DNA of 64,000 nt from Thermococcus peptonophilus (GTDB lineage Archaea; Methanobacteriota_B; Thermococci; Thermococcales; Thermococcaceae), in NCBI RefSeq assembly GCF_001592435.1, contig NZ_CP014750.1:1736001-1800000 (forward strand). The letters run 5' to 3'. The notes under the pieces were generated by a model. The model saw nothing but the letters and a program-made list of their open reading frames with translations, searched no databases and had not been told where the DNA came from. This document shows positions 4,379-62,780 of this stretch, one piece after another. Position numbers and translations under genes: made by a program. The first letter of the stretch is position 1. The number at the start of each line of letters is the position of its first letter.

Positions 4379-4395
4379 GTTATCAACCAAAGGTT
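4379..4395. promoter_or_regulatory. Extended SurR-type site between the hypC paralogue and the DUF302 gene
   Basis: GTT-ATC-AAC-CAAAG-GTT matches the extended SurR consensus GTTn3AACn5GTT at all nine fixed positions. It spans the predicted transcription start and ribosome binding site of the HypC-like gene on the minus strand, and sits just upstream of the TATA box of the DUF302 gene on the plus strand. SurR could therefore act differently on the two genes. Confidence 0.65.
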
Positions 4396-4420
4396 GAAGA
4401 AAATTATTTATATTCCTTTT

Positions 4421-4438
4421 CCTGACTGGTCAGTCAGG
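4421..4438. promoter_or_regulatory. Perfect palindrome, probable TetR operator 1
   Basis: CCTGACTGGTCAGTCAGG is an 8+8 inverted repeat with a 2-base centre. Its core TGACTGGTCAGTCA (4423-4436) recurs before tetR and before the oxidoreductase gene. It covers the predicted start of the DUF302 transcript (TATA TTATTTATA at 4404-4412), a place where binding would block transcription. Confidence 0.75.
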
Positions 4439-4446
4439 TGGTTCCC

Positions 4447-4830
4447 ATGGAGGACATGATGAAGCAGATGGTAAAGGGAGTGAAGAGCAAGTACTCCTTT
4501 GAGGAAACTATCAAAAAGATGAAGGAGAAAGTTGAAGGGCTCGGCTGGAAAGTAATTGGGGAATACGACTTCAAGGATAAACTTGGAATAGGATTTGCTG
4601 TTCTTGAGGTATGCAATAAGGATTTCGCAGCGAAGGCAGTGGGCAAACCCGAAAACCGCTGGATTTCTGCGATGATGCCCTGCAGGTTCTCTGTCATCGA
4701 GATGCCCGACGGGATATACGTCTTCGGGATGAACATGGGGCTCTTTTCCCAGATGGTTTCTGGGGAGCTTGGGGAGCTTCTCAAAGAAGTCGCCAAGATA
4801 GACGAGGAAATAATGTCAGCGGTTCTGTAA
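4447..4830 (+). CDS. DUF302 family protein
   Basis: A 127-residue soluble protein of the DUF302 type; the family fold is a small alpha/beta dimer whose biochemical role is not settled. The region GLGWKVIGEYDFKDKLGI, then VLEVCNKDFAAKAV, corresponds to the domain core. The start is uncertain: ATG 4447 has AGGTGG five bases upstream, while ATG 4459 has GGAGG five bases upstream. It is a single gene under a palindrome shared with tetR and the hydrogenase-linked oxidoreductase operon, so its function is probably tied to that enzyme or its inducer. Confidence 0.75.
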   Translation: MEDMMKQMVKGVKSKYSFEETIKKMKEKVEGLGWKVIGEYDFKDKLGIGFAVLEVCNKDFAAKAVGKPENRWISAMMPCRFSVIEMPDGIYVFGMNMGLFSQMVSGELGELLKEVAKIDEEIMSAVL

Positions 4831-4930
4831 TGATCCTCCGTGTTCTCTATATGCCTTCTTCCGTTATGACATTTTCTCAACCTTCAGCGAAAAAGTTTAA
4901 ATTATTAAGACTACACATAAATGGTTAGTA

Positions 4931-4944
4931 TGACTGGATAGTCA
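4931..4944. promoter_or_regulatory. Probable TetR operator 2 (autoregulatory)
   Basis: TGACTGGATAGTCA has the same length and spacing as the copies at 4423 and 5649. It lies between the tetR promoter (BRE about 4888-4895, TATA TTTAAATTA 4896-4904) and the start codon, right at the expected transcription start near 4926-4930. This suggests autorepression. Confidence 0.75.
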
Positions 4945-4956
4945 GAGGTGCGGGCG

Positions 4957-5550
4957 GTGGCAACCAAGTCTCCGGGGAAGACCAGAGAAAAGATAGTCTC
5001 CGCGGCGATGGAGCTGTTCGCGAAGAAGGGCTTCGACAGGACGACTGTAGACGAGATAGTGGCCAAAGCGGGCGTTGCCAAGGGGACGTTCTATCTCTAC
5101 TTTAAGAGCAAGGACGACCTGATAAAGGAGCTTGCCTTTGAGGTAATGCCCATAATGGCCATGCCTTCCCTTAACGACCCGTATATAACCGTTTCCTATC
5201 CAACGCTCGGGGATTACCTTCTCCGGCTTGGAAAGGAGTTCCTCGATTTTTATTCCAAAGAATACCGGGCCGAGATCCTTTTCCATATGCTCTCTGTAAG
5301 AGCAAGGTATAAGTCCATCAATGATATTTACAAACAGTCCTGCTCCGAGCTTTTGAGGGAGGGGGCAAGGCGGGTTACTGCCTACGCTAAAGTTGGTTAC
5401 GAAGATGCCTTAATAGCATTTCAGATGTTTATCGGCTCCCTAATGCACTATCTCCACGCGAGGGACTGCCTGGGGTTTTCTGAAAGCCATTACCTAAAGA
5501 AGGTCGTTGGGGCCGTTCTCAACCACCTGAGACTCTCTGTCAGCGTTTAA
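4957..5550 (+). CDS. TetR family transcriptional regulator
   Basis: The protein (197 residues) has the classic TetR N-terminal helix-turn-helix: TREKIVSAAMELFAKKGF, TTVDEIVAKAGVAKG, then FYLYFKSKDDL. The C-terminal two thirds is helical and would bind a small ligand and dimerise; its specificity cannot be read. I prefer GTG 4957, which has GAGGTG six bases upstream; GTG 4948 in the same frame is an alternative. It is flanked by genes carrying the same palindrome as its own promoter, so it is most likely the local repressor of the DUF302 gene and of the molybdopterin oxidoreductase/hydrogenase operon. Confidence 0.92.
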   Translation: MATKSPGKTREKIVSAAMELFAKKGFDRTTVDEIVAKAGVAKGTFYLYFKSKDDLIKELAFEVMPIMAMPSLNDPYITVSYPTLGDYLLRLGKEFLDFYSKEYRAEILFHMLSVRARYKSINDIYKQSCSELLREGARRVTAYAKVGYEDALIAFQMFIGSLMHYLHARDCLGFSESHYLKKVVGAVLNHLRLSVSV

Positions 5551-5648: not shown

Positions 5649-5662
5649 TGACTAGTCAGTCA
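5649..5662. promoter_or_regulatory. Probable TetR operator 3, before the oxidoreductase/hydrogenase operon
   Basis: TGACTAGTCAGTCA is the third copy of the palindrome. The promoter ahead of it has a BRE-like CAGAAAAC (5613-5620) and TATA TATTTAAGG (5621-5629), which predict a start near 5650, inside the operator. Confidence 0.75.
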
Positions 5663-5681
5663 TATATCGGTGGTGATACCT

Positions 5682-7742
5682 ATGGCAGAGAAGTTAGTGC
5701 CTGTTGTGTGCCCGTGGTGTTCAGTGGGGTGCAGGTTCTACGCGGTCAGCGTGAACGGCTACATCAGGAGGATTGAGTTCGACTACGACCATCCAACAAT
5801 AGCAAACAGAGGAAAGCTCTGTCCAAAGGGAGTTGCTTCCTACCAGTTCATTAACAGCCCGAAGAGGCTCAAGAAACCGCTCAAGCGCGTTGGAGAGAAG
5901 GGCGAAGGCAAATTCGAGGAGATAAGCTGGGAAGAAGCCTACAGGATAATAGCCGAGAAAATCAAGGAAATAAAGGAGACCTACGGACCGGAGGCAATAG
6001 CCTTCCTTGGAAGCGAGAAGATAACCCTCGAGGAGAACTACCTCGTCCACAAGCTCTCCAAAGCGATTGGAACCAACCACCTCGACTTCCCTGGAAGATA
6101 CTGCCAGTACTCGAACAGCCCTGCAAGAACGAAGGTCTTTGGAAGCGCCGCTGCCACAAACCCGTTCGAGGACGTAGCCAAGGCAGAGCTGATAGTGATC
6201 TGGGGTCACAACCCAGCCGAGACAGCCCCAGTTCTCTTTGGGCAGTACATTGAAAAGGCCATTCTTGACAACGGTGCTGAAATGATAGTCATTGACCCGC
6301 GCTCAACGAGGGGACACAAGTACGCCTCACTCCATCTCAAGCCCTATCCTGGAACTGATCTCGCGGTTGCACTGGCGCTGCTCAACGTTGTCATAACCGA
6401 GGAGCTCTACGACAAGGAGTTCGTCCAGGAGAGGACCGCAGGCTTCGAGAAGCTTAAGGAGAGCGTCAAGGACTACACTCCGGAGTGGGCCGAGAAGATA
6501 AGCGGCGTCCCCGCTGAGGACATAAGAAAGGCCGCCAGGATGATAGCTAACAAAAGAACTGCCTTCCTCGTCAACGAGGGTGTTAACCAGCACGTTAACG
6601 GATTCAATCTCGCCCTTGCGATAGCCGACCTCATCGCGATAACGGGTAACATCGGGAAGGAAGGCGTCTGGAGCGGCGTATTTCCGGGAGCCCAGTGCGG
6701 CTTCTGTGCCGCCATGAGCGGTATTGCACCCAACAAGCTCCCAACTGGAGGTCTTGTAACCGACGAGGCCGCAAGGGCCGAACTCGAGAGGCTCTGGGGC
6801 TTCAAGATACCCGACTGGGTCGGTCTTGACCTCACCAACATGGTTCGCGAAATAGGGAAGAAGATACGCATGATGTACATCATCGGTGGAAACATCGCCA
6901 AGTCAATGCCCAACAGCGGCTGGGTCAGGGAGCAGCTGAAGAAGCTCGACTTCCTTGTTGTTCAGGACATCTTCCTAACTGAGACTGCTAAGTACGCCGA
7001 TATAGTCCTTCCGGCCGCGGCCTGGTTCGAGAAGACTGGAACCGCTATCAGCGCCGAGAGGCGCGTGCAGAGGACTTACAAGGCCGCCGAAGCCCCAGGA
7101 GAGGCCAAGCCCGACTGGCTCATCATAGTTGAGCTTGCCAAGGAACTCGGCCTCGGCGAGTACTTCAAGTACTCCCACCCGGACGAGATACTGAGGGAGA
7201 TAAACAGCGTCATCCCGCTCTTCAAGGGCGCAACTCCAGAGTACCTCGCCGAGCACCCTGAGGGTTGCTTCCTCCCGTGCAGTGAGCCAGGGGAGGGGAC
7301 TAAGATACTCTTCAAGAAGGGCTTCAAGACACCAGACGGAAAAGCCCAGCTCCAGCCGGTAGAGTGGATGGAGCCTCCCGAGATGCCGGACGAGGAGTAC
7401 CCGCTCTGGCTCACCAACTTCAGGCTCGTTGGCCACTGGCACACCAACACCATGAGCGAGGAGAGCCCGAGCCTCAAGAAGCGCTGGCCAGAGGAATACG
7501 TCATGATACACCCGAAGGACGCCAGGGAGCTTGGAATCAAAACAGGCGACCTCGTAAAGGTCGAGACCAGGCGCGGAAGCATTCTTGTCAGAGCAGAGGT
7601 TACTGAGCACGTCAGGGAAGGCGTGATAGCAATGCCCTGGCACTGGCAGGCCAACTTCCTCACGCTGGACGAGATACACCCGATGACGAAGATGGCCGAG
7701 CTGAAGGCCGTCGCGGCCAGGGTGAAGAAGGTGGAGGAGTGA
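5682..7742 (+). CDS. Mo/W-bisPGD oxidoreductase, formate dehydrogenase-like catalytic subunit
   Basis: A 686-residue member of the DMSO reductase superfamily. An N-terminal 4Fe-4S site (Cys10, 13, 17, 47: CPWCSVGC and KLCPKG) precedes the bis-pterin domains and a C-terminal beta-barrel. Cys141 (GRYCQYSNSP) is in the place of the metal-ligand Sec/Cys of formate dehydrogenases and is encoded by TGC. Two features differ from well-known formate dehydrogenases: the residue after Cys141 is Gln rather than His, and the RGQNNVQGACDMG segment is replaced by FPGAQCGFCAAMSG. The start ATG 5682 has GGTGGTGAT just upstream. It leads an operon with a ferredoxin subunit and a complete membrane [NiFe] hydrogenase, so electrons from its substrate should go to protons. 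Databases would call it fdhA; formate as substrate is an inference that the active site does not clearly support. Confidence 0.85.
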   Translation: MAEKLVPVVCPWCSVGCRFYAVSVNGYIRRIEFDYDHPTIANRGKLCPKGVASYQFINSPKRLKKPLKRVGEKGEGKFEEISWEEAYRIIAEKIKEIKETYGPEAIAFLGSEKITLEENYLVHKLSKAIGTNHLDFPGRYCQYSNSPARTKVFGSAAATNPFEDVAKAELIVIWGHNPAETAPVLFGQYIEKAILDNGAEMIVIDPRSTRGHKYASLHLKPYPGTDLAVALALLNVVITEELYDKEFVQERTAGFEKLKESVKDYTPEWAEKISGVPAEDIRKAARMIANKRTAFLVNEGVNQHVNGFNLALAIADLIAITGNIGKEGVWSGVFPGAQCGFCAAMSGIAPNKLPTGGLVTDEAARAELERLWGFKIPDWVGLDLTNMVREIGKKIRMMYIIGGNIAKSMPNSGWVREQLKKLDFLVVQDIFLTETAKYADIVLPAAAWFEKTGTAISAERRVQRTYKAAEAPGEAKPDWLIIVELAKELGLGEYFKYSHPDEILREINSVIPLFKGATPEYLAEHPEGCFLPCSEPGEGTKILFKKGFKTPDGKAQLQPVEWMEPPEMPDEEYPLWLTNFRLVGHWHTNTMSEESPSLKKRWPEEYVMIHPKDARELGIKTGDLVKVETRRGSILVRAEVTEHVREGVIAMPWHWQANFLTLDEIHPMTKMAELKAVAARVKKVEE

Positions 7743-7752
7743 GGTGGTTGAA

Positions 7753-8250
7753 ATGGCCCACAAGAAGATTTTCCTCGACTATAAGCGCTGCATTGGCTGT
7801 AAGGCCTGTGAAGTTGCCTGTGAAATGACCCACGGCGAGGCCAGGATAAAGGTCTTCGAGTTCCCTGACCTCTTCACAGTTCCCTTCAACTGCCGCCACT
7901 GTGAGAAGGCCCCCTGTCTGAACGTCTGTCCGACCGGAGCCCTCTTCAGGGACGAGGACGGTGCAGTTGCCTTCGACCCGCTCAAGTGTATCGGCTGTCT
8001 CATGTGTGCCGTTGCCTGTCCGTTTGGAGTTCCAAAGCTCGACGAGGAGAACAAGATCATGGACAAGTGCGACCTCTGTGCCGACAGGAGGGCGGAGGGC
8101 CTCCTTCCAGCTTGTGTGTCAGCCTGTCCAACTGAGGCCCTTAAGTACGGCGAGATAGATGAGATACTCTGGGAGAGGGAAGGAAAGGTCGTGGCCAACC
8201 TCAAGAGCGCAGCCGAGAAGGGGGAGGGTGAGCCGGCCCTCCTCCTCTGA
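7753..8250 (+). CDS. Four-cluster ferredoxin-like electron transfer subunit (HycB/FdhB type)
   Basis: This 165-residue protein has four CxxCxxCxxxC-type groups (CIGCKACEVAC, CRHCEKAPCLNVC, CIGCLMCAVAC, CDLCADRR then CVSACP), typical of the beta subunits that pass electrons from molybdopterin enzymes through four 4Fe-4S centres. ATG 7753 is preceded by GAGGTG and lies 10 bases after the catalytic subunit, so the two are translationally close. It should link that subunit to the hydrogenase module downstream, as HycB does in formate hydrogenlyase. Confidence 0.93.
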   Translation: MAHKKIFLDYKRCIGCKACEVACEMTHGEARIKVFEFPDLFTVPFNCRHCEKAPCLNVCPTGALFRDEDGAVAFDPLKCIGCLMCAVACPFGVPKLDEENKIMDKCDLCADRRAEGLLPACVSACPTEALKYGEIDEILWEREGKVVANLKSAAEKGEGEPALLL

Positions 8251-8270
8251 CCATTATTTTTTTGCAGGAA

Positions 8271-8287
8271 AACCAAAGGTTGAAAAC
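8271..8287. promoter_or_regulatory. Extended SurR-type site inside the oxidoreductase/hydrogenase operon
   Basis: AAC-CAAAG-GTT-GAA-AAC is an exact match, in reverse orientation, to GTTn3AACn5GTT. It lies in the only sizeable gap of the operon (8251-8303), after a weak T-rich TATA candidate (TTATTTTTTT) and directly before the GGGGTGAT ribosome binding site of the first membrane subunit. It may give the hydrogenase half its own sulfur-responsive control. Confidence 0.6.
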
Positions 8288-8303: not shown

Positions 8304-9719
8304 GTGATAGAACTGTTCCTGGCATCGGCGCTCCTGCCCTTCATCCTCGTGCTGGCTTGGAAGACGGAGGGTAAATCAGCGGACACCTTTGCTTCAGTTA
8401 TCCTGGGACTCTCATTCCTCATAAACGCGGCTGGAACTTACGAGTTCTTTGCTGGTGATACCAGCAAGGTTTATCATGCCGCCTACGTCTCCGCCGGAAA
8501 CCTCGGCGAGGTCTTTGGCGCAACGGCCGACGTCGCTTCAGTTCTCATGGGATTCTTCTCAATACTAATAGCGTTCCTTCTGGCGGTTTACTCGGCCCAG
8601 TACTTCAGCCAGAAAAACAGGGCCTTCCCGATGGGTTCAGGAAAGGGCAGGTTCTACGGGCTCCTCGGCCTTCTTACCGGCGCAACTATGGTGTTCATCT
8701 ACGCAACGAACCTCGTCCAGTTCGCAGTTGCCCTCGAGATAATGGCGATAGCGATCCTTTACCTAGTGAACTTCTACGGAAACGCCAAGACGGACGCCCT
8801 CAAGGCCTTCCTCGTCCTGAACCTTGGCGTCCTCCTCATCCTCGGGGCCGTTGCAGTGCTCGGCGGCGGACAGGAGCTCGATAAAATGACCGCGAACAAC
8901 ACGGCATTACTTCTCGTCATGTTCGCCTCCTTTGCCATGAGTTCGCAGCTGCTCTTCTACTCCTGGCTTCCAGATTCAACTGCCTCACCAGTTCCAGCAA
9001 GTGCCTACGTTCACTCCGCCTCGATAGTCCCGCTCGGAAGCTTCATGCTCTTCAGGGTCATACAGTACATGAAGCCCGACGACTCGACCTTCTGGGTTCT
9101 TGGAGGGCTAACCGTTGCACTGATATTCCTGATGATGATATACTACCCGCTCCAGCGCGACGCCAAAAAGCTCGTTGCCTACTCGACCATAGCCCAGACC
9201 GGAGTTTCGTACATAACCCTCGCCTATGCACTCCTCGGGCACACCGTTGGACTGCAGATAGCGCTCTACCAGGTGGTCAACCACGCGGTGGTTAAGGCCC
9301 TCGCATTCGCCTCAGTCGGCGGCCTCGCCTACTCCCTCGGTACGACTAACATGAAACTCATAAGGGGAATGAGAAAAGCCGTTCCTTGGACGAGCATCTC
9401 CTGGTTTGCGGGATTCTTAGGGCTGGCTGGCGTTATGCCTCTCGGCCTCTTCTTCAGTAAGGCATTCACGATCATGAGCACCAGGCACGCCAAGGGAATC
9501 GCTTCATGGCTCTTTCCGGCAACCATTCTCTTCGATGCAGCGATATTCCTTGTGGTTGTCCTGCTGTGGTTCAGGGAGAGCTTTTTCGGAGAACCAAGCG
9601 ACGAAGCTGAGAAGGAACCGGGTCTCATGGTCGCAGTAATGATAGTGCTGATACTCATAGGCATCGTGGCGCCGTGGGTTACGCTTGACATAGTTCAGAA
9701 GATAGCCTTCATGGGGTGA
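8304..9719 (+). CDS. Antiporter-like membrane subunit (NuoN/HyfF type)
   Basis: A 471-residue integral membrane protein with about 14 hydrophobic segments. It has the proton-channel signatures of NuoL/M/N proteins, including a Lys/His-rich middle (YSWLPDSTASPVPASAYVHS; LVAYSTIAQTGVSYI; VNHAVVKALAF). GTG 8304 is the start, with GGGGTGAT six bases before it. Together with the next gene it would form the ion-pumping arm of a group 4 membrane hydrogenase. Confidence 0.9.
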   Translation: MIELFLASALLPFILVLAWKTEGKSADTFASVILGLSFLINAAGTYEFFAGDTSKVYHAAYVSAGNLGEVFGATADVASVLMGFFSILIAFLLAVYSAQYFSQKNRAFPMGSGKGRFYGLLGLLTGATMVFIYATNLVQFAVALEIMAIAILYLVNFYGNAKTDALKAFLVLNLGVLLILGAVAVLGGGQELDKMTANNTALLLVMFASFAMSSQLLFYSWLPDSTASPVPASAYVHSASIVPLGSFMLFRVIQYMKPDDSTFWVLGGLTVALIFLMMIYYPLQRDAKKLVAYSTIAQTGVSYITLAYALLGHTVGLQIALYQVVNHAVVKALAFASVGGLAYSLGTTNMKLIRGMRKAVPWTSISWFAGFLGLAGVMPLGLFFSKAFTIMSTRHAKGIASWLFPATILFDAAIFLVVVLLWFRESFFGEPSDEAEKEPGLMVAVMIVLILIGIVAPWVTLDIVQKIAFMG

Positions 9720-9725
9720 TGTGAG

Positions 9726-11741
9726 ATGATGCTCGAATACGCGCTCGGAGCTTTCATCCTCGGCGGCCTTATAGGGCTTATCCGCGACTATAAAGCCTCC
9801 GTAAAGGCGTCGAGCTTCATGGCGTTCCTCGGCTCACTCGTCCTGCTCTGGCAGAGCTACGATGTTTACAAGAACGGAACGGTCACCGGAGAGCTCTTCA
9901 GAATATCCATAAAGATAGACCCGCTGTCTGCGGTCTTTTTGCTCATAATCGGCATCGTCGGAACCGCGGCTTCGCTCTATGCCATAAGCTACATGGACGT
10001 CTTTGAAAACAAGGGCAAGGGATGGGTCTATGCGATAGCCTACAACACCCTCCTAGCGAGCATGGCCCTTGTTGTCACAGTTGACAGCATGGAGTACTTT
10101 GTCATGAGCTGGGAGCTCATGACCATTAGCTCATTTATACTGGTATTCTTCAGTGAGGAAGCGAGGGACACGATAGCGAGCGTGAAGTACTACATAACCA
10201 TGCACTTCCTCGACACAATACCGCTCTTCCTGGCCCTCGGTACTGCTTACTCCCTTGTTGGAAACTTTGAAGAGCTGACGTTCGAGACCATCTCACAAGC
10301 CCTTGCAACGGCCCCGGAGCACACCAGAATTGTTATGTACGCTCTCCTCACAATTGCCTTCATGACGAAGGCCGGGATAGTTCCCTTCCACTTCTGGGTT
10401 CCAGAGGCTTACAGGGCGGCACCGAGCAGCGTCTCGGCAGTTATGGCCGGCATAATGGAGAAGGTTGCACTCTACGGCCTGATAGCCCTCGTCTGGCGCA
10501 TGATAGGTGCCAACACCGCTCTGGGCCTCTTCGTCGCTGTAATAGGCGCTATAACCCTCACAGTTGGTACTCTCTACGCCCTCAGGGAGACCAACGCGAA
10601 GAGGCTTTTAGCCTACCACAGCATCGGTCAGATGGGCTACATCTGGCTTGGGGTTGGCATCGGCATGGCCCTCATCCCGAAGGGAGGGGCACTTGCAGCT
10701 GTCGGTGCGCTTGGAGCCTTCGCTGGCGTATTCCACGCCCTCAACCACGCCATATTCAAGAGCTCGCTCTTCCTCTCAGCTGGAGCGGTTGAGTATAGAA
10801 CCGGAACGGTTGACCTCGACGTCCTCGGGGGCCTCGGAAAGTACATGAAGTGGACTGCTTTAGCTGCTCTCTTCGCCTCGCTGGCAATAAGCGGCGTTCC
10901 ACCATTCAACGGTTTCATAAGCAAGTGGCTCATCTACGTTGCGGGCTACTACTCCCAGAGCTACATCCTCGCCCTTGGAGCTGTCCTGGCGGCCTTCATA
11001 AGTGCCGCAACGCTCGCCTCTTTCGTCAAGTTCTACGGCTCCCAGTTCGGCGGCGAGATGGGGCGCTACAAGAACGTTAGGGAAGTTCCGGGGGTAATGG
11101 TCGTCGGCCAGTGGATACTCGCGGCTCTGACCCTGATAATAGGCATCGTTCCAGGTACAGTCTCGGACATGCTCAACGAGGGAATAAAAGCGGGTTTCAC
11201 GATGGGAGCACCCATAGAGGATGGCCTCTATAGGATCGGCTTCCAGTCGGTGCTCTTCAGCCCGGTGCTCTTCGTCATTGTCCTCGGTGTTCTGGCCTTT
11301 GGACTCTACCTGACGTTCAAGCCCGAGTACGGCAAGGAGGCCAAGCCATGGGACTGCGGTTCAACGCAGATAGACGAAGACGAGTACAGAGTGAACGCCG
11401 AAGGGCTCTATCTCTGGTACGAGGAGAAAATAGGCTCGTTCTACCGCTTCGGCGACTGGTTCTACCGCGTGGGTGAGGAGGCGATCCACTACATCGTCAG
11501 GGGCTACCTCTGGATGGCGAGCTACTTCACCAAGATCGTTGACACGCCGTACACCAAGGTCGAAACCCTCGACGACCTCAGGGAGCGCGAGATAATGTAC
11601 ATTGATGAAGAAATATTTAGACCTCTCGTCAGGTTCCTCAGGATAGCTAGGGACGTAGTTCCGGGAATAAGGCTTGGAACCTTCGTCGTCATAGCACTGA
11701 TAGTCGTAGGGGCGATAATAGGAATACTTGTCGCACTGTGA
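9726..11741 (+). CDS. Antiporter-like membrane subunit (NuoL/HyfB/HycC type)
   Basis: A 671-residue membrane protein, long like E. coli HyfB. It has the NuoL core (ELMTISSFILVFF, MTKAGIVPFHFWVPEAYRAAPSSVSA, LLAYHSIGQMGY, NHAIFKSSLFLSAGAV) and a long C-terminal amphipathic region ending in a last membrane helix, which in this family runs along the membrane arm. It starts six bases after the previous gene. Two antiporter-like subunits but no MnhB/C/E/F/G or NuoK-like gene make this complex closer to Hyf than to the Mbh or Mfh-Mnh enzymes of Thermococcus. Confidence 0.92.
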   Translation: MMLEYALGAFILGGLIGLIRDYKASVKASSFMAFLGSLVLLWQSYDVYKNGTVTGELFRISIKIDPLSAVFLLIIGIVGTAASLYAISYMDVFENKGKGWVYAIAYNTLLASMALVVTVDSMEYFVMSWELMTISSFILVFFSEEARDTIASVKYYITMHFLDTIPLFLALGTAYSLVGNFEELTFETISQALATAPEHTRIVMYALLTIAFMTKAGIVPFHFWVPEAYRAAPSSVSAVMAGIMEKVALYGLIALVWRMIGANTALGLFVAVIGAITLTVGTLYALRETNAKRLLAYHSIGQMGYIWLGVGIGMALIPKGGALAAVGALGAFAGVFHALNHAIFKSSLFLSAGAVEYRTGTVDLDVLGGLGKYMKWTALAALFASLAISGVPPFNGFISKWLIYVAGYYSQSYILALGAVLAAFISAATLASFVKFYGSQFGGEMGRYKNVREVPGVMVVGQWILAALTLIIGIVPGTVSDMLNEGIKAGFTMGAPIEDGLYRIGFQSVLFSPVLFVIVLGVLAFGLYLTFKPEYGKEAKPWDCGSTQIDEDEYRVNAEGLYLWYEEKIGSFYRFGDWFYRVGEEAIHYIVRGYLWMASYFTKIVDTPYTKVETLDDLREREIMYIDEEIFRPLVRFLRIARDVVPGIRLGTFVVIALIVVGAIIGILVAL

Positions 11742-11751
11742 GGTGATGAAA

Positions 11752-12672
11752 ATGGAGTTCGACGTAACGAGACTCGTGTTTGCCGCCATCGGAATCCTCA
11801 TAATATTCATCCTGCCACCTTACCTCGACGGTATAGCGAGGAGGGTCAAAGCAAGGCTCCAGTACAGGCGCGGACCGCCGCTGGCCCAGACCTGGTACGA
11901 CCTCCTGAAGCTCTTCAACCTCCCATCGGTCAAGCCAACAAGCAGTAAGCTCTTCACATGGGCTCCCTACCTGGCACTCGCATCAGCGATAACCGCCGCC
12001 CTGCTCCTGCCCTACGGCAACGTCGTCCCAGTGGACTTCGGCTTCAACCTGGTGGTGTTCTTTTATGTGATACTGATGGTCAGCGTCTTCCTCATCCTCG
12101 GTGGTCTCACCGTCCAGAACGCCTTCAGCCACATAGGTTCGGCGAGGGAGATGAAGATAGTCCTCACAGTTGAGCCGCTGATAGCCATCCTCTACGGAGT
12201 AATGGCCTACAACGCCGGCTCACTCAACATCGCTGACATCATAGCGAACCTTCACCTCACACCGTCGCTCATACTGACCTACATCCTTCTCGCTTACGCC
12301 CTCTACGTCGAGAGCGGCTTCGTTCCCTTCGACGTGGCAGAGGCCGAGCAGGAAGTCATCGGCGGACCACTTGGGGAATACAGCGGCAGGCTCCTCGGAG
12401 TGTTCTACTACGCAATCCACATCAAGCGCTTCGCCCTGCTGTGGTTCTTCGTCAGCGTCCTCGTCATGCCATGGGTTGGACCGATAAACACAGCAGTCAA
12501 GGCCGCAGAAGTGCTCGCGCTCCAGTTCCTGCTGACGGTGTCGTTCTACCCGATAATAGCGGCGATAGAGGCCACCAACGCAAGGCTTAGGATAGACCAC
12601 GTAGTTAAGATGAACACGAGGATGTTCTTTGCCGGAATTATAATCCTTGCTATGGCTTTCATGGGGTGGTGA
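11752..12672 (+). CDS. Hydrogenase membrane subunit (NuoH/HycD type)
   Basis: This 306-residue protein with about eight membrane segments has the NuoH signatures RVKARLQYRRGPP near the N-terminus and ESGFVPFDVAEAEQEVIGG in the middle, the loop that contacts the peripheral arm and quinone-like cavity. ATG 11752 follows GAGGTGA by five bases and is placed 10 bases after the NuoL-like gene. It anchors the hydrogenase module to the ion-translocating arm. Confidence 0.93.
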   Translation: MEFDVTRLVFAAIGILIIFILPPYLDGIARRVKARLQYRRGPPLAQTWYDLLKLFNLPSVKPTSSKLFTWAPYLALASAITAALLLPYGNVVPVDFGFNLVVFFYVILMVSVFLILGGLTVQNAFSHIGSAREMKIVLTVEPLIAILYGVMAYNAGSLNIADIIANLHLTPSLILTYILLAYALYVESGFVPFDVAEAEQEVIGGPLGEYSGRLLGVFYYAIHIKRFALLWFFVSVLVMPWVGPINTAVKAAEVLALQFLLTVSFYPIIAAIEATNARLRIDHVVKMNTRMFFAGIIILAMAFMGW

Positions 12673-12674
12673 AT

Positions 12675-14474
12675 ATGGTGACGACCAAGGATTTGGAAGC
12701 TAACTTTGAATTCGAATGCAAGGCATGTGAAAACGGCCGTTGCGCGAAGGCCGACGTTGAGAAGATACTATCCGAGAGGGAGGGCCTCAAAGACTTCTAT
12801 GAGGCCTTCAAGGACCACATAAAAGAGTGCAAGAGGATGAGCTACGGCCAGTACATGTTCACAATCGACCGCGAAGTCCTGCCTGAAGCGGTGCTCTGGT
12901 GGCACAACCACCCGAAGTTCAAGGAGACCCACCTCTCAACGGCCGTTGGAACCGACGAGAGGCCGCTCAACGGCCACTTCGTCTACATGCCCTTCCTCAA
13001 CGTCCAGGTTGAGCCATTCAACATGGACAAGAACTACTGGGTCTTCCTCAGGGCATACATGCCCGCCGACGACCCGAGCTTCCCGAGCGTCGCAGCCAAG
13101 CTCCCAGCCGCGCTGTGGATAGAGAGGGAAGTAAAAGACCTCCTTGGATTCAACCCAGTCGGCCATCCCGACCCGAGGAGGCTCATCCTTCCGGAGGACT
13201 GGCCTGAAGGCGTTTACCCGCTCAGGAAGGACATGGACTACAGGCACTCCCCGATGACCGAACCAAAGGTTGAGTTCAAGGAGAAGCCTGAAGGAACGAC
13301 CCTCGTCCCGATGGGTCCGGTTCATGCCGGAATTGAAGAGCCGGCCCACTTCAGGCTCTTCGTCAAGGGTGAGGAGATCGTCGACGTTGACTACCGCGGA
13401 TTCTACTCCCACAGGGGAATAGAGAAGACCGGCGAGGGCAGGCTGACCTACAACCAGGTGCTCTTCCTGGCGGAGAGGATCTGCGGTATCTGTGGCTACC
13501 AGCACTCGGTCAGCTACGCTATGGCCGTCGAGAGGCTTGCTGACGTTGAAATACCGGACAGGGCCCGCTACATCAGAACCCTGCTCCTCGAGCTGGAGAG
13601 GATTCACAACCACCTTCTCTGGGTAGGTATAGCGGCGCACCTCGTTGGTTTCGACACCGGCTTCATGCACGCCTGGCGCATCCGTGAGCCGGTCATGTGG
13701 CTGGTGGAGAGACTAACGGGCAACAGAAAGCAGTACGGTATGAACATCGTCGGCGGCGTCAGGAGGGATCTCCTCGACTACCGCAAAGAGGAAGTCCTCA
13801 AGGTTGTGAAGCAGATACGCGAGGAGACCAAGAAGTTCCTCGATGTAGCACTCAACACCAACACCTTCATCAAGCGTGCAGAGGGCGTCGGAATACTGCC
13901 CTACAAGGTTGCCAAGGCCTACTCCGTCCTCGGACCGACTGCAAGGGCCAGCGGAAGGAAGATCGACGTTAGGAAGGACCAGGCTGTAAAGACCGCCACA
14001 GCCTACAACGAGGTTGACTTCAAGGTTCCGGTGTACAAGGAGGGCGACGTTCTCGCCAGAGTTCTTGTGAGGATGGACGAGCTCTTCGAGAGCATCTGGA
14101 TAGTCGAACAGCTCATCGACCAGATGCCCGGTGGAGATATCTTCACACCGATAGGAAGCCTGCCCGAGTATGAGGAAGCCCTCGGATTCACCGAGGCCCA
14201 CCGCGGTGAGGTCGTCCACTACGTCATGACCGGCGAGAAGAACAAGGTCTACCGCTGGAAGGTCAGGGCACCGACTTACAACAACCTGCCGGCAGTTCCG
14301 GAGATGCTCAAAGGCTACCATGTTGCCGATGCACCGCTCATCATAGCGAGCATTGACCCGTGCTATTCCTGTACGGAAAGGGTCCAGTTCGTGGACGTCA
14401 ACACAGGTAGGGTGAAGGTTCTGACCGAGGCCGAGTTCAACGAGCTCTCTATCAAGTACAAGGGGGTGTTCTGA
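12675..14474 (+). CDS. [NiFe] hydrogenase large subunit, fused NuoC-NuoD type (HycE-like)
   Basis: A 599-residue fusion of an N-terminal NuoC-like domain (to about residue 190) with the catalytic large subunit, as in HycE/HyfG. Nickel is held by the L1 motif RICGICGYQHS (Cys270, Cys273) and the L2 motif DPCYSC (Cys563, Cys566). A 33-residue tail follows the last Cys and should be clipped, probably after DPCYSCTER, by the HycI-type protease encoded at 17306-17779. ATG 12675 begins just after the previous stop and has GGGGTGGTGA upstream. All metal ligands are present, so the enzyme should be a working hydrogenase. Confidence 0.95.
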   Translation: MVTTKDLEANFEFECKACENGRCAKADVEKILSEREGLKDFYEAFKDHIKECKRMSYGQYMFTIDREVLPEAVLWWHNHPKFKETHLSTAVGTDERPLNGHFVYMPFLNVQVEPFNMDKNYWVFLRAYMPADDPSFPSVAAKLPAALWIEREVKDLLGFNPVGHPDPRRLILPEDWPEGVYPLRKDMDYRHSPMTEPKVEFKEKPEGTTLVPMGPVHAGIEEPAHFRLFVKGEEIVDVDYRGFYSHRGIEKTGEGRLTYNQVLFLAERICGICGYQHSVSYAMAVERLADVEIPDRARYIRTLLLELERIHNHLLWVGIAAHLVGFDTGFMHAWRIREPVMWLVERLTGNRKQYGMNIVGGVRRDLLDYRKEEVLKVVKQIREETKKFLDVALNTNTFIKRAEGVGILPYKVAKAYSVLGPTARASGRKIDVRKDQAVKTATAYNEVDFKVPVYKEGDVLARVLVRMDELFESIWIVEQLIDQMPGGDIFTPIGSLPEYEEALGFTEAHRGEVVHYVMTGEKNKVYRWKVRAPTYNNLPAVPEMLKGYHVADAPLIIASIDPCYSCTERVQFVDVNTGRVKVLTEAEFNELSIKYKGVF

Positions 14475-15106
14475 TGGCCGAGAGCGCCCCGTACAGCGAG
14501 AGACTGAAGAAGTGGGACCGCTTCGAGGCCGAGAAGTTCGAAAAGAAGGCCCCCGTCACCACCCCCTATCCTTTTATTGACATCGAGAAGCCGCCGGAAT
14601 TCCGCGGAATTCCGCACATCAACCCCGAAAAGTGCATTGGCTGTGGAGCCTGCGTTAACGCCTGTCCGCCCGATGCCCTCATAATGGAGTGGGACAAGGA
14701 GCATGGAGTGAAGAGGCTCACCTACAACGCCGCCCGCTGTATCCGCTGTGCCCGCTGTATCGAGGTCTGTCCGACGGGTGCCATGGAGCCGACGACTCGG
14801 TTTGAGGTCGCGACTGACAACAAGGAAGACCTCGTCGAGGTGGTTGAGCATAAGTTAGCGTACTGCGAAGAGTGCGGCGAATACCTTGACTTCACCGAGA
14901 GGCAGATAGAGTACGTCAGGAACATCCTGCCGAAGGACGTCTTCGATATGTACGCCCTTGAGGACAGGATAAAGCTGACGCAGGAGGAGAAGATGAGGAG
15001 AACAGTCGTCAAGCTCAGGGAAACAGAGGGCAACGTCTATCCCGCTTTCATGCTCGTGGAGAGAACATCCGAAAAGACCCCCAAGTCGGAAGGGGGTGAG
15101 GAGTGA
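14474..15106 (+). CDS. 8Fe ferredoxin-like hydrogenase subunit (HycF/HyfH type)
   Basis: This 210-residue protein has two CxxCxxCxxxCP groups (CIGCGACVNACP and CIRCARCIEVCP) for two 4Fe-4S clusters. A further CEEC pair near residue 134 may bind zinc or iron. Its ATG overlaps the stop of the large subunit (TGATG), so translation is coupled. It bridges the four-cluster ferredoxin subunit and the NuoB-like subunit. Confidence 0.93.
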   Translation: MAESAPYSERLKKWDRFEAEKFEKKAPVTTPYPFIDIEKPPEFRGIPHINPEKCIGCGACVNACPPDALIMEWDKEHGVKRLTYNAARCIRCARCIEVCPTGAMEPTTRFEVATDNKEDLVEVVEHKLAYCEECGEYLDFTERQIEYVRNILPKDVFDMYALEDRIKLTQEEKMRRTVVKLRETEGNVYPAFMLVERTSEKTPKSEGGEE

Positions 15107-15945
15107 TGGGGAAGCAGAAGCTCAAGTCCGTTTGGGTCTATCACGTTGATGCCGGCTCCTGTAACGGCTGTGATATTGAAGTTCTCGATGTCCTGAGCCC
15201 ATACTACGACCTTGAGAGGCTGGGTGTCAAGGTTGTTCCGAATCCAAGGCACGCGGATGCTCTGTTCATAACTGGCCCGCTGACAAGGCAGACGAGGATA
15301 GCTCTCAAGAAGGCCTACGAAGCGATGCCGCCCAAGCCGAGGATCGTCGTTGCCATCGGAACCTGTGCTTCAAGCGGTGGTATCTTCTACAACAGCTATG
15401 CTCTCTACAACACTTCACCACAGAGGGGACGCGACAGGCTCAGGAGCGGCGGACCTGAGATGATAGTGCCGATAGACATGTACATTCCAGGCTGTCCGCC
15501 TTCACCTGAGGAGATCCTCTACGGGGTAGCCCAGCTCCTCGGTATCAAGGAGAAGAAGATGAAAGGCGAATACTGGATAGCCCTACCACCTGAGGCAGAA
15601 CCATCAAAAGAGAACGAGATAAAGTTCAAAATACCTGAGAGACCGATACCGCTCCGCTACTGGCTGACGCTGAGGGAAGAGCTCAGGAGGGTCGTCGGCT
15701 ACTACGACCGCGACGCAGTCCTCGAGGACTTCATGAAGCTGGTTGACAGGGCATACAAGGAAGCCCCAGACAACCCGAAGGAGAAGCTCCACGACCTCAT
15801 AACCGGCTACGCCCTGAGGGAGAAGGACTCAAGGGTAAACGTGGCAATGCGCTTCCTTGAAAACGAGTTCTGGCGCTTGGTTGACGAGTACCGCGAGTGG
15901 GGAGAGAGCCTGAAGAGGAAGTACTCGGTAACCGCGGGTGTCTAA
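15106..15945 (+). CDS. Hydrogenase small subunit (NuoB/HycG type)
   Basis: A 279-residue protein with the proximal-cluster ligands of group 4 hydrogenases: GSCNGCDIEVLDVLSP, then GTCASSGG and PGCPPSPEEI. The ATG at 15106 overlaps the upstream stop by one base and has GGGGGTGAGG before it. The C-terminal 100 residues are a family extension rich in charged residues. It is the direct electron donor to the NiFe site. Confidence 0.94.
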   Translation: MGKQKLKSVWVYHVDAGSCNGCDIEVLDVLSPYYDLERLGVKVVPNPRHADALFITGPLTRQTRIALKKAYEAMPPKPRIVVAIGTCASSGGIFYNSYALYNTSPQRGRDRLRSGGPEMIVPIDMYIPGCPPSPEEILYGVAQLLGIKEKKMKGEYWIALPPEAEPSKENEIKFKIPERPIPLRYWLTLREELRRVVGYYDRDAVLEDFMKLVDRAYKEAPDNPKEKLHDLITGYALREKDSRVNVAMRFLENEFWRLVDEYREWGESLKRKYSVTAGV

Positions 15946-15946
15946 A

Positions 15947-16264
15947 GTGCCGTGGAAGCTCTACCGCTTCAAGTACGAGGACTACCCGGAGTACTCCGCC
16001 AGGATAACAGGGCACTACGCAGGAGATCTGCTCATCATAGAGGAAGAGGGAGAACTCAGCGAGGAGGCAGTGAGACTCATAAAAGAAGCTCTTGGTATCA
16101 ACGAAAACGCCAGGAAGTTCGACATCGAGGTCAGGGACATCATGAAGATTCCGGTGGAGGATTTGCCAGACAAGGACAGGAAGACCCTCCTCGAAGCGGC
16201 GAGCAAGCTCGACTCGGAGAGCAAGCTCCACGTTGAGTACCGCTACCAGCCGAGCTTCGATTAG
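15947..16264 (+). CDS. Small conserved protein at the end of the hydrogenase operon
   Basis: I do not recognise this 105-residue soluble protein. It begins MPWKLYRFKYEDYPEY and is strongly acidic, with no Cys motif and no membrane segment. GTG 15947 has GCGGGTG upstream; GTG 15938 in the same frame is an alternative that overlaps the NuoB-like gene. Its position and near-zero spacing suggest an accessory or assembly subunit of this hydrogenase. Confidence 0.8.
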   Translation: MPWKLYRFKYEDYPEYSARITGHYAGDLLIIEEEGELSEEAVRLIKEALGINENARKFDIEVRDIMKIPVEDLPDKDRKTLLEAASKLDSESKLHVEYRYQPSFD

Positions 16265-17779: not shown

Positions 17780-17805
17780 TTTAATCACCAAAATAAAAGG
17801 GAAAA

Positions 17806-49386: not shown

Positions 49387-49409
49387 AAGCGATCACCGAA
49401 TATTAAAAA

Positions 49410-49745: not shown

Positions 49746-49750
49746 TTCCA

Positions 49751-50502: not shown

Positions 50503-50519
50503 AACAAAAGGTTTAGAAC
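50503..50519. promoter_or_regulatory. Extended SurR-type site upstream of the Ni/Co transporter operon
   Basis: AAC-AAAAG-GTT-TAG-AAC is an exact match (reverse orientation). It lies about 22 bases upstream of the operon TATA (CTTTTATAT at 50471-50480, read on the minus strand), an activating position. The long leader between TATA and cbiM also has loosely matching TGGTGTAT and TGTTACCA arms, which I do not rate. Confidence 0.6.
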
Positions 50520-59745: not shown

Positions 59746-59844
59746 GATACCACCCAATATTGTTTGGAGTTCGAGGCCTTAAACCTTTGCTAGATTAGTG
59801 CAGTCTAAGGAAAACATTTATCTGGGGAGGCATTACTTCCAAAT

Positions 59845-60648
59845 ATGCTGGACGCCGAACGCACGGTTAGGACATTGCTGGCAAACTCCGAGAGTGTTTT
59901 AAATGAACTCAGAAAACGGATTGCCGAGAACAACGTTACACTTGCTTTTCTCCTGGACATTCAGTCCCTCTTCGTCCTTGGCCTTGGAGATGCCAGTCTG
60001 TACGCTTTCGCATTAAACATGGACGACGTCGTTGAGGAATCCTACAAGTTCTTTCGCGAAGGATACTCTCTGATGAAGAAGAACGGCCTCTTAGTGAGCA
60101 ACCCTGATCTTGACCTCCAGCTTGGTGTGTTGAAAAATTTAGATATAAAACGTGGTTTTTCACTTGACAGACGGCTTTCAATGCTCGGAAGCCCAAAGGA
60201 AATACAGGTGTGGGTGAACAGAATAATTAAGCTTCGCAATGCCCTTCATGGTGTTTTTCCGCGTGACCCTCTTAGGGAGCTTGGCTACGGAATGTCGAAG
60301 GATGACCGGAAGTTTCCGCTCCTCTTGAAAGCCGTCAGGAGGATTTATGGGATGAACCCTCCCACCGTTGAGGCTCTATCGAGACTGTTATACCTTGAGA
60401 TGAAGCTGGGGCTTAAGCCTTCTAAACTGCCCTGTAAAGATGGTCTCTGTGAGGAGATCGCCTCGGTTGGGGACGTTGGGAACTTTGAAGTGGTGAGTTC
60501 GGGCGATGTTGAGCTCTACTACCGCTTCAAAGATAAGAAACACCTGGACGCCCCCTGGGGCCGGCTAACGATGGGGGAACCTGTTGAGGTAATCGTTTTC
60601 TCAAAGGAAAAGAAGAAGGGGTTCAGGCTGGTTAAAGAAGCTCCTTGA
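59845..60648 (+). CDS. Hypothetical protein, alpha-helical
   Basis: A 267-residue protein of unknown function. It is helical and soluble, with a CKDGLC pair near residue 195 and a beta-rich C-terminus. TATA CATTTATC about 28 bases upstream and no ribosome binding site suggest a leaderless start. It overlaps the convergent reductase gene by 17 bases. Confidence 0.7.
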
Positions 60649-61819
60649 GGAGGTTGAGCCTCCTCTTGCTCATCAGAACCTTCGGGTGCTTCAGGAGGGT
60701 TTTTATGACTTCAACGTAGTCACCAGCAGCTATCTTCTCCGCGTCGGCGCCGCTGAGTAACTGGATGAACAGATCGAGGTCTTCATCAGTAAGCTTCTCC
60801 GTAACGCGCCTGACCTTGAGGACTTTTTCAAGTCTCTTTCCATCGGTCTCCCACCACTCCCTGGTGTAGTTCTGGAGGAGGGAGATGTTTTCCTCTTCGA
60901 GGGCCTTGACGATCCACTTGCTAGCTATCGTTCCTGCTTCCATTGCCTCGGCCATTCCACCGCCGTGCATCGGGTTTACCTGTCTGGCTGCGTCCCCAAC
61001 GACGAGAACGTTGTCCTTGACGAGCTCCTTGACGAAGCCCCCAACGGGAACAACGCCGACATTCACCTCGAGGAGCTTCTTTGCGGGAATATTGTTCTCC
61101 TTCAGCCACTTGTCGAGGTAGTACTTGGCGGTCTTTGGATTGTCGGAGTTTATGCCTATGCCGACGTTGGCCCTGTCCTCGTCCTTCGGGAAGACCCAGA
61201 CGTAACCCCTCGGGGCAATCTCGTTGCCGAACCAGAGATGGATTAAATCCGGGTCAAAGCCCTCTATGAGCATCTCGTACTCGTAGCTTGAGTCGAATTC
61301 GTGAGGTGGAGCGTAGGTGTTTATTCCGGCTTTCCTCGCTATGGTGCTCTCAACGCCGTCAGCCGCTACGATAATGTCAGCGTGAATCTCAACAGGCTCA
61401 TCCTCGTGCTTGGCCTTGATTCCGACTATCTTGCCGTCCTTTTTTATGACGTCAAGGGCCTCAGTCCTCGCGAGGACGTCCGCACCGGCCTTAGCGGCGT
61501 AGTAAGCGAGCATCTTGTCAAAGACCTTCCTCTCAAGGATGACCCCACTGACTTCCTTGTAGCGCATTTCAAGCTCGTAGCCGCTGGGGGAGTAGAGCTT
61601 GGCTCCGTAGATCTCGCGGTTGATAAATCTCTTGTCGTAGGGGATGTCGTACTTATCAAAGACCTTAATGCTTATTCCCTCGGCGCACTGCTTGGGAGTG
61701 CCTATCGCCCACTTCTTGTCGATGAGAAGGACTGAGAAGCCAGCTTTAGCGACGTTTCTCGCAACTATGGGGCCAGCGATACCAGAACCGACCACAACAA
61801 CGTCGTACTTCCAGGTCAT
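60632..61819 (-). CDS. Geranylgeranyl reductase (archaeal lipid saturation)
   Basis: A 395-residue FAD enzyme that saturates the geranylgeranyl chains of archaeal ether lipids. FAD-binding [18 protein letters not shown], the PXXYXWXFP-like [12 protein letters not shown] and [14 protein letters not shown] are the family motifs. It overlaps the ferredoxin gene before it by four bases, so that ferredoxin is likely its electron donor. Confidence 0.93.
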
Positions 61820-62019
61820 TCGCTCACCTCCAGGGGTTCAGCGCTTAAAGCTCCAACGGGGCAGGCATTGATGCATATCCTGCAGCTTATGCACTTGTCC
61901 TGGATGAACTCCCAGCCGGTTGAATGCACCTCTATCGCGAGTGTCGGGCAGACGCCGGCACAACCGCCGCAGAGATAGCATTTATCTTCGTTCACAACCA
62001 CTTTAATCTTCTCCGGCAT
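61816..62019 (-). CDS. Ferredoxin, two 4Fe-4S clusters
   Basis: A 67-residue ferredoxin with [12 protein letters not shown] and [15 protein letters not shown] 62019 has GGCGGTGA before it. It is translationally coupled to the geranylgeranyl reductase and its start overlaps the end of surR, so surR, ferredoxin and reductase may share a transcript. Confidence 0.93.
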
Positions 62020-62713
62020 CGGTTTCACCGCCCAGCTTCGCCTTCAGTCTTTCCTCATCAACCTCAATTACGCTGTCTTTTATTCTTAACGGTACGAATC
62101 TGTCCAGCTCCTCGGCCTTCTGCAGGACTTCCCTCTCCTTCAGGTTAAGCCTGTCTGAGAGCTCGTCAACTGTTGCCCTTCCGTTCAGGAGAACGTAGTG
62201 GAGAATTGCCAGCTGGGTCATGTCGCCGATCTCTTTGAGGTACGTGTCCTTTATTGATTTCATAAGCCTGTCCCTTCTGCTTTCGATAGCTCTAAGGGCT
62301 TCAAGAACTTTCTCAAGCTCTTTAGTAGCTCTCATGAACAGGTCTATCATCTCAAGGAGGTTTTCGGGGCTCTCCTTCAGCAGATCGAGGTTTATCTCTA
62401 TCTCCCCACCATGTTCATCGCCTAGGTCAAGGCCGCGGTACCAGAAGATGTTTGGTGTTATCGTGGCGACGTACGTTTTTGAAATGTCGATGTTGTAGTA
62501 CTTTCTCGCCGGGCCGATGAACGGGCCCTCTCTTTCGTAAGACTTCAAAATTCCCTCACGTTCCATGATTTTAAGGTGCTTTGCGACTGCCGTCGAGGAA
62601 ACGCTCACCTTGCTGCTAAGAAAGCTGAAGTAGCACTCAGTACAGGTGAGGTGGCTTAGTAAATCTCTCCTAACTTTGTTCCCGAGTATGTAAAAGATGT
62701 CCGGTTCAGACAT
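62003..62713 (-). CDS. surR: Sulfur response regulator SurR
   Basis: SurR is the redox switch of Thermococcales: with its Cys pair reduced it activates hydrogenase genes and represses sulfur genes, and oxidation by elemental sulfur releases it from DNA. This 236-residue protein starts MSEPDIFYILGNKVRRDLLS and keeps the CTEC switch (Cys24/Cys27) within a winged helix (VSSTAVAKHLKIMEREG), plus a second winged helix near the C-terminus. ATG 62713 has AGGTG before it. The matching DNA site lies in its own promoter, and the pdo gene is divergent. Confidence 0.97.
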   Translation of the reverse strand: MSEPDIFYILGNKVRRDLLSHLTCTECYFSFLSSKVSVSSTAVAKHLKIMEREGILKSYEREGPFIGPARKYYNIDISKTYVATITPNIFWYRGLDLGDEHGGEIEINLDLLKESPENLLEMIDLFMRATKELEKVLEALRAIESRRDRLMKSIKDTYLKEIGDMTQLAILHYVLLNGRATVDELSDRLNLKEREVLQKAEELDRFVPLRIKDSVIEVDEERLKAKLGGETDAGED

Positions 62714-62763
62714 GCCCAACACCTGCCCAAATCTGTGACGTAAGGTTTATATAGTGAACATTC

Positions 62764-62780
62764 AACCTTAGGTTGCAAAC
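62764..62780. promoter_or_regulatory. Extended SurR-type site in the surR-pdo intergenic region
   Basis: AAC-CTTAG-GTT-GCA-AAC matches the consensus exactly and lies about 10 bases upstream of the surR TATA (62744-62755, read on the minus strand). A second core GTTn3AAC (GTTATAAAC, 62818-62826) covers the pdo TATA; its extended arm has one mismatch. This arrangement at the known SurR-PDO locus supports the reading of the other sites in the window. Confidence 0.8.

Follow-up and report, generated by a model that had tools for sequence, protein, structure and literature searches.

Predicted SurR sites at hydrogenase, maturation, nickel-uptake and Fe-S genes of Thermococcus peptonophilus, with a conserved site inside a formate hydrogenlyase operon

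Introduction

Whether hydrogenase, maturation, nickel-uptake and Fe-S genes that lie near one another answer to a single regulator, and with what sign, is the question raised by a 64,000-nucleotide stretch of the Thermococcus peptonophilus genome, the whole of which was analyzed here and is termed the window. An earlier note had read six exact copies of GTTn3AACn5GTT in the window as extended sites of SurR that tie these genes into one regulon. In Pyrococcus furiosus and its relatives, reduced SurR binds DNA in the absence of sulfur, while sulfur oxidizes its CxxC motif and SurR lets go. SurR sites upstream of the TATA box activate and those downstream repress (PMC12162507). The SurR regulon, including hydrogenase-maturation genes, is long published (PMC12162507; PMC4463584), maturation genes having been reported among the SurR targets of P. 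furiosus, and HycI, the neighboring ATPase, HypE and HypF falling on sulfur in T. onnurineus (PMC4463584). The regulation of the formate hydrogenlyase (fhl) operons of Thermococci, one of which lies in the window, has been stated as an open question (PMC10025317).

Results

A motif scan of the window found seven exact matches to GTTn3AACn5GTT (Table 1). All six positions given previously (4379, 8271, 18999, 20780, 50503 and 62764) were recovered as exact, the total of six being one short of the count through the site ahead of hypC. The accompanying chance estimate of about 0.5 per 64 kb is arithmetically correct, and dinucleotide shuffling gives an expectation of 0.25, with a maximum of 2 in 100 shuffles. 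The genome-wide scan with a background control that the earlier note had proposed yielded 51 matches in 1.90 Mb, mostly in promoters, vs 5 for the pattern read backwards; the totals for 11 genomes of the genus were 444 and 81. The 51 matches form 35 clusters, 7 of them within the window; were its 64 kb only as dense in clusters as the remainder of the genome, 0.98 would be expected (Poisson P = 7e-5, calculated post hoc). Of the 28 clusters beyond the window, only 4 are placed well within a gene, so coding DNA is not rich in the motif, and the possibility of a coding-sequence artifact was rejected.

Many of the genome-wide matches fall at classic SurR targets. Among the targets that NCBIfam names in the genome are the beta subunits of sulfhydrogenases I and II, HypF, glutamate dehydrogenase, two Nfn-type reductase subunits, CoA-disulfide reductase (Nsr type) and, for two membrane complexes, a first gene of MrpE type.

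Table 1. Features of the window considered here (positions count from its first letter; those with a sign are relative to the start codon named).
Feature	Position	Strand	Evidence or context
hypD	2688..3815	-	PF01924 E=5e-135
hypC (MCLA...)	3818..4078	-	TIGR00074 79.5 bits, cutoff 48
HypC paralogue without Cys2 (MALMLAG...; conserved C-terminal CSY)	4123..4377	-	PF01455 E=6e-14
Predicted SurR site	4127..4143	-	exact; -65 to -49 of hypC ATG, directly 5' of TATA-like ctaaataa
Predicted SurR site	4379..4395	+	exact; divergent HypC-paralogue/DUF302 promoter
Candidate TetR-type palindrome TGACTGGTCAGTCA	4423..4436		between DUF302 TATA and start
DUF302 protein gene	4447..4830	+	PF03625 23.6 bits, cutoff 23
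Candidate TetR-type palindrome	4931..4944		tetR promoter
TetR/AcrR-family regulator	4948..5550	+	PF00440 E=1e-20
Candidate TetR-type palindrome TGACTAGTCAGTCA	5649..5662		fdhA promoter, 3' of TATA-like ctatttaagg
fdhA, formate dehydrogenase alpha	5670..7742	+	TIGR01591 672.8 bits, cutoff 666
fdhB-like 4Fe-4S electron-transfer subunit	7744..8250	+	
Predicted SurR site	8271..8287	-	exact; inside fhl operon, gap between fdhB-like and first membrane hydrogenase gene
Membrane [NiFe] hydrogenase genes	8304..16264	+	antiporter-like, HycC/D-like, large subunit, ferredoxin-like, small subunit, small ORF
Hydrogenase large subunit	12666-14474	+	
Hydrogenase small subunit	15103-15945	+	
Small ORF at end of hydrogenase genes	15938-16264	+	
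hypA, Mrp/MinD-type hypB, hycI	17306..18953	-	
Predicted SurR site	18999..19015	+	exact; -62 to -46 of hypA, beside TATA-like ctttttaagg
DGC-domain gene	20281..20718	-	PF08859
Predicted SurR site	20780..20796	+	exact; between divergent DGC gene and sufC, 5' of both TATA-like elements
Accessory sufC and short sufB/D-like gene	20850..22515	+	
cbiM (TTG start, LHIPDG), PDGLE, cbiQ, cbiO	47753..50407	-	nickel/cobalt ECF transporter
Predicted SurR site	50503..50519	-	exact; 5' of BRE/TATA of cbiM-PDGLE-cbiQ-cbiO operon
surR (PF0095-like)	62003..62713	-	PF22315 (Pfam) E=5e-22, translation
Predicted SurR site	62764..62780	-	exact; surR-pdo divergent promoter, surR -67 to -51, 5' of tatataaa
Short SurR palindrome GTTATAAAC	62818..62826	+	overlaps pdo TATA box
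pdo, protein disulfide oxidoreductase, two thioredoxin folds	62833..63528	+	

The regulator itself is encoded in the window, as had been claimed, and the site in its own promoter is exact in all 30 surR genes of the family Thermococcaceae. Its matches to PF22315 and to HTH profiles, together with a CxxC (C-T-E-C) near the N-terminus, within the N-terminal domain, and a PF0095-like C-terminal domain, are those of an ArsR-type winged helix-turn-helix protein with a redox CxxC.

The sites also recur in relatives. The hypC site is found at the same position, with at most one mismatch, in 22 of 27 hypC genes of the family, and is exact at -65/-66 in 21 of the 24 genus loci that have the paralogue, while site 4379 is kept in place, with no more than one mismatch, in 19 of 24 genus loci. 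The DGC orthologues, most of them in other genera, have the site in 7 of 8 cases (5 exact) at the same tolerance. The pattern GTTn3AAC(n5GTT) is above chance in target promoters and kept upstream of orthologues, hypA reaching only 21/30 at up to one mismatch across genera (14 exact), with a recognizable site missing in about a third of the relatives scanned. Fixed-position conservation also extends to hydrogenase genes, and orthologue sites hold their positions in up to six genera, the triplets being retained while the spacer bases vary freely. Site recurrence at fixed positions upstream of orthologues therefore makes the observation real and equates it with the published SurR regulon.

It is very improbable that the sites owe their presence to chance or to the base composition of AT-rich promoters and bind nothing. 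Such a reading would fit the AT-rich genera (g3 and g5), where the motif is no commoner than the reversed control, and the surR-pdo region, where the reversed control also matched in 7 of 30 promoters; AT-rich promoters therefore inflate the counts. The tenfold excess over the control in T. peptonophilus argues against it, as does triplet conservation even where the cbiM proteins are only 34–39% identical, and the reversed control matched none of the hypA, hypC, DGC and cbiM promoters of the orthologues.

The identities of some proposed targets require revision. Site 18999 lies upstream of hypA in the hypA-hypB-hycI group, as the earlier note held, and also, at -70 to -54, ahead of a divergent gene for a CDF cation transporter, but the "HypB" is an Mrp/MinD-type ATPase and not the GTPase HypB. 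Taking the first ATG (20772) as the start would put site 20780 within an ORF; the better-supported sufC start at about 20850 places it upstream of sufC. The proposed Fe-S target thus has its site, but the DGC-sufCB genes are an accessory cassette and not the main Fe-S assembly genes, a housekeeping SUF role being rejected because two other distant SufB homologues exist elsewhere in the genome. The nickel/cobalt transporter was correctly named, 28 of 29 cbiM promoters having the site within one mismatch (8 exact).

The gene adjoining hypC-hypD encodes a protein that is of the HypC/HybG family by profile, but scores 46.2 against the TIGR00074 cutoff of 48. Cys2 is absent from all 24 aligned homologues of the paralogue, so it is HypC-like and not a proven HypC. 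It co-occurs with the TetR-linked fhl operon in 25 of 26 genomes. Site 4127–4143 is within the last codons of its ORF and encodes its final residues (V-S-N-L-R-F). Site 4379 lies between its TATA box and ATG (-18 to -2) and, relative to DUF302, upstream of the TATA box at -68 to -52. The divergent pair was rightly listed among the site-bearing genes, although with a difference in sign, repression being predicted for the paralogue.

The fdhA promoter has no SurR site by the motif scan. Site 8271 is instead internal to the operon, about 9 bp 3' of a T-tract. Of the 27 loci in the genus with this type of operon, 24 have the site exact, two have it with one mismatch and one lacks it. The hydrogenase membrane genes thus have a site, as claimed, and it is conserved, though not at the promoter of the operon. 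An RNA hairpin at this place was rejected because the spacer bases vary but the three triplets do not, the pattern of a site read by a protein. The palindrome at 4423 occurs within two mismatches in all 24 genus loci, and two relatives have exactly TGACTGGTCAGTCA at the equivalent place in the fdhA promoter. By position, in the promoters of the regulator itself and of neighboring targets, the palindromes are candidate TetR operators, and the adjacent TetR-family protein probably controls the fdhA promoter through the three of them.

Discussion

The seven extended sites very likely belong to the SurR regulon of this Thermococcus, with sulfur-dependent release and the TATA position setting the sign. 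Without sulfur, reduced SurR would be bound at the seven sites, and with sulfur its CxxC would be oxidized and SurR released. A site just 5' of BRE/TATA would most likely mean activation (hypCD, hypA-hypB-hycI, cbiM-PDGLE-cbiQ-cbiO, DGC, sufC, DUF302 and surR), and a site on or after the TATA box repression (pdo and the HypC paralogue). The predicted activation of hypCD, hypA-hypB-hycI, cbiM and surR is such that cofactor assembly, nickel uptake and SurR itself would rise when hydrogenases are needed. In Palaeococcus the reverse of this prediction was seen, sulfur raising the genes for Ni/Co transport and maturation (PMC6981617). The proposal of one regulon is borne out by the genome-wide excess, the identity of the other targets and the conserved positions, and from sequence SurR is a well-supported link between these genes; some gene identities and the number of sites did not survive, and the window's sites are predicted to be mixed in sign by the published rules.

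The sign is least certain at site 8271, which may be a point of repression or a roadblock separating the hydrogenase half from fdhAB. Tentatively, in Thermococcus species with the TetR-linked fhl operon, SurR at the internal T-tract and site would set hydrogenase output apart from formate dehydrogenase and also repress a dedicated HypC-like protein that lacks Cys2, while TetR controls the entry promoter; if so, sulfur would switch on the HypC variant and change the ratio of formate dehydrogenase to hydrogenase. There is close to an even chance that the sites are real but that the local TetR-family repressor is the main control of operon 5670–16264, with the internal SurR site doing no more than tune it. 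The three palindromes are the only ones in the window within two mismatches and recur beside the homologous cluster in other genomes, and a survey of Thermococci describes the promoters of Group 4 fhl operons as having a TetR gene and lacking a SurR site (PMC10025317); however, three matches per window are not above chance alone (mean 2.2), and the conservation of the internal site argues for its importance. Activation through site 8271 of an internal promoter serving the hydrogenase genes is unlikely. SurR does activate hydrogenase genes elsewhere, and in T. litoralis sulfur lowers the fdh-mhy operon (PMC2432063), but the 16 bp from the site to the start codon contain no TATA-like element, and the T-tract is upstream of the site. 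For the question of fhl regulation (PMC10025317), the candidate TetR operators at the entry and the SurR site in mid-operon are precise test sites.

In the literature searched, which left most subscription papers (among them the primary SurR papers) outside its scope, there was nothing fitting on a Cys2-less HypC in Thermococcus or on SurR control of CbiM, and no earlier report of a conserved SurR site inside a formate-hydrogen operon. The HypC paralogue differs from HypC/HybG chaperones in lacking the N-terminal Cys2, in its conserved C-terminal CSY and in occurring almost only alongside the fhl operon; tied to one hydrogenase type, it could test the need for that cysteine.

The operon is of the same kind as fdhAB-mhyCDEFGH of T. 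litoralis, with two fdh genes placed ahead of six hydrogenase genes, which is a single transcript with no sign of internal promoters and for which the part of the report available describes no SurR or TetR sites (PMC2432063). Group 4 fhl operons are marked by an upstream TetR gene, fdhAB and hydrogenase genes, and the lack of a formate transporter. The present operon shares fdhAB, the membrane [NiFe] hydrogenase and a tetR gene just upstream on the same strand, a likeness of tetR and gene order drawn by description and not gene list by gene list; it differs in its internal SurR site and in the TetR operator candidates identified here, and the first possible fdhA start comes 119 bp after the end of tetR, where the survey gives about 350 nt (PMC10025317). 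The surR-pdo divergent region combines a long site with a short palindrome, which is the layout published for the SurR system. The regulator with its CxxC and the motif are likewise those of the Thermococcales (P. furiosus PF0095, T. kodakarensis, T. onnurineus, T. barophilus and T. piezophilus), whose common core targets are hydrogenases, membrane complexes, Nsr, Nfn and maturation genes. In contrast to the known regulons as described in the literature searched, seven sites are tightly clustered here, one of them inside an operon, and the set includes nickel/cobalt ECF uptake and the DGC-SufCB cassette; cofactor assembly and nickel uptake, the latter with a cbiM site kept family-wide, would thereby share one sulfur switch with the enzymes that depend on them.

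Extended SurR sites in the window and the genome

An earlier note proposed that six copies of the extended site of SurR, the sulfur-sensing redox regulator of Thermococcales (GTTn3AACn5GTT, at 4379, 8271, 18999, 20780, 50503 and 62764), unite genes of the window in one regulon. All six are exact, and an additional site at 4127-4143 (-) brings the total to seven, compared with a mean of 0.25 and a maximum of 2 in 100 shuffles. For the short palindrome GTTn3AAC there are 26 matches where 11 are expected, so that the short form by itself is weak evidence. In the genome (1.90 Mb in two contigs, 99.9% complete) there are 51 long matches versus 5 for the reversed pattern; merging of overlaps leaves 35 clusters, 28 of them outside the window, a density that predicts 0.98 clusters per 64 kb versus the 7 seen (P = 7e-5, which is post hoc because the window was chosen for these sites). 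The motif is not common in coding DNA: only 4 of the 28 outside clusters lie well within genes, approximately the number predicted by the reversed control. Overlapping triple sites, which may indicate cooperative SurR binding, occur at genome positions 313684, 978654 and 1343188. The earlier observation thus holds and gains one more site; surR itself also lies in the window, identified by the features listed in the table.

Features of the window and the basis of their assignment
Feature	Position	Basis or location
HypC paralogue	4123-4377 (-)	PF01455 match
TetR-type palindrome, candidate operator	4423-4436	DUF302 promoter
TetR-type palindrome, candidate operator	4931-4944	tetR promoter
TetR-type palindrome, candidate operator	5649-5662	fdhA promoter
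fdhA, 4Fe-4S subunit and membrane [NiFe] hydrogenase genes (fhl operon)	5670-16264	fdhA, TIGR01591 above cut-off
surR	62003-62713	PF0095-like C-terminal domain, CTEC motif; divergent from pdo

Conservation upstream of orthologues

The scan for conserved sites covered 41 family genomes and took in the upstream regions of those orthologues whose loci were retrieved. The surR site is exact in 30/30 at about -70; since the reversed control also matches at surR-pdo in 7/30, this figure is best weighed by its exact fixed position. That control gave no matches upstream of hypA, hypC, DGC or cbiM orthologues, where the site is exact in 14/30 (21/30 at ≤1 mismatch, mostly -61 to -67), 9/27 (22/27, about -65 to -69), 5/8 (7/8) and 8/29 (28/29, about -80 to -107), respectively. 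The hypC site is absent from the earlier note. The cbiM site is kept even upstream of genes whose proteins share only 34-39% identity. In AT-rich genera the motif is genome-wide no commoner than the reversed control. In the literature searched, which consisted of papers other than the primary SurR ones, no mention was found of a family-wide cbiM site, nor of the internal fhl site, candidate TetR operators and Cys2-less HypC described below.

Predicted direction of control

By the published rule, SurR activates from sites upstream of the TATA element and represses from sites downstream (PMC12162507). With TATA-like elements assigned by eye, the site is upstream at hypC, hypA, cbiM, DGC, sufC, DUF302 and surR, and at pdo a short palindrome overlaps the TATA. 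In the HypC paralogue promoter the site spans -18 to -2, between TATA and start codon, and the gene should therefore be repressed without sulfur, opposite to the adjoining hypC, whose own site lies in the last codons of the paralogue (V-S-N-L-R-F). A CDF cation-efflux transporter gene (19069-19965) is divergent from hypA across site 18999 and is a possible further target.

The fhl operon and its neighbors

As in the Group 4 fhl promoters of a published survey (PMC10025317), no SurR site was seen in the fdhA promoter, but one lies inside the operon, downstream of fdhB and ahead of the hydrogenase genes, preceded by a T-tract (e.g. TTATTTTTT) immediately after the fdhB stop codon. Among 27 genus loci of this type, 24 have the site exactly, 2 with one mismatch and 1 lacks it; this search required the T-tract, making the T-tract count conditional. 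A search without that requirement gave 20/24 exact and 22/24 at ≤1 mismatch; of the two loci without a match, one had been scanned in the wrong orientation. By eye, no TATA-like element separates the site from the hydrogenase start codon. Repression or a roadblock there is the favored reading, although it is only about as likely as all alternatives combined.

The HypC paralogue lacks Cys2 in all 24 aligned homologues, most having Ala, and its C-terminal CSY is conserved. Of 61 genomes of the genus, 26 carry the paralogue and 27 the fhl operon; because they co-occur in 25 (Fisher P = 1e-13, indicative as the genomes are related), the paralogue is probably dedicated to the fhl hydrogenase, perhaps as a specialized chaperone or as an inhibitor.

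The palindrome TGACTGNNCAGTCA has three matches in the window at ≤2 mismatches, not above chance (shuffle mean 2.2), so the case for candidate TetR operators is one of placement and conservation, not number. All fall in a 1.3-kb stretch that includes the TetR-family gene (4948-5550), downstream of TATA-like elements, an arrangement that would suit a repressor. Two relatives have an exact copy in their fdhA promoter, three further genomes have the palindrome close to the homologous cluster, and it is found at ≤2 mismatches in 24/24 HypC-paralogue/DUF302 promoters.

Other genes of the window

Two of the proposed targets are redefined: hypB encodes an Mrp/MinD-type ATPase (PF10609), as known from T. 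kodakarensis, and DGC-sufCB (20281-22515) is an accessory cassette, since the genome holds two further distant SufB homologues. Its DGC and SufB proteins are mostly 80-94% identical to other-genus copies, above the surR and hypA level; the excess of DGC identity (85-94%) over that of surR (60-70%) suggests lateral transfer together with a SurR-controlled promoter. Separately, the AMP-forming acetyl-CoA synthetase at 713-2652 is split between two ORFs that overlap but are read in different frames: 713-1564 holds the N-terminal part and 1543-2652 the remainder, reflecting either a frameshifted gene or a sequencing error.

Comparison with known systems

The fhl operon has the gene layout of T. 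litoralis fdhAB-mhyCDEFGH (PMC2432063). Directly upstream of the window (contig 1727194-1734496) lies another gene cluster for a membrane complex, whose antiporter-like genes are ∼33% identical to 8304-9719; no long SurR site occurs within 1720000-1737000. Genes beside the outside sites, named by NCBIfam, encode sulfhydrogenase I and II beta, MrpE-type first genes of two membrane complexes, CoA-disulfide reductase (above the curated cut-off), two sulfide/dihydroorotate dehydrogenase-like (Nfn-type) subunits, HypF and archaeal glutamate dehydrogenase, in agreement with the published SurR regulon. That regulon is already known; the window adds a new example with good support.
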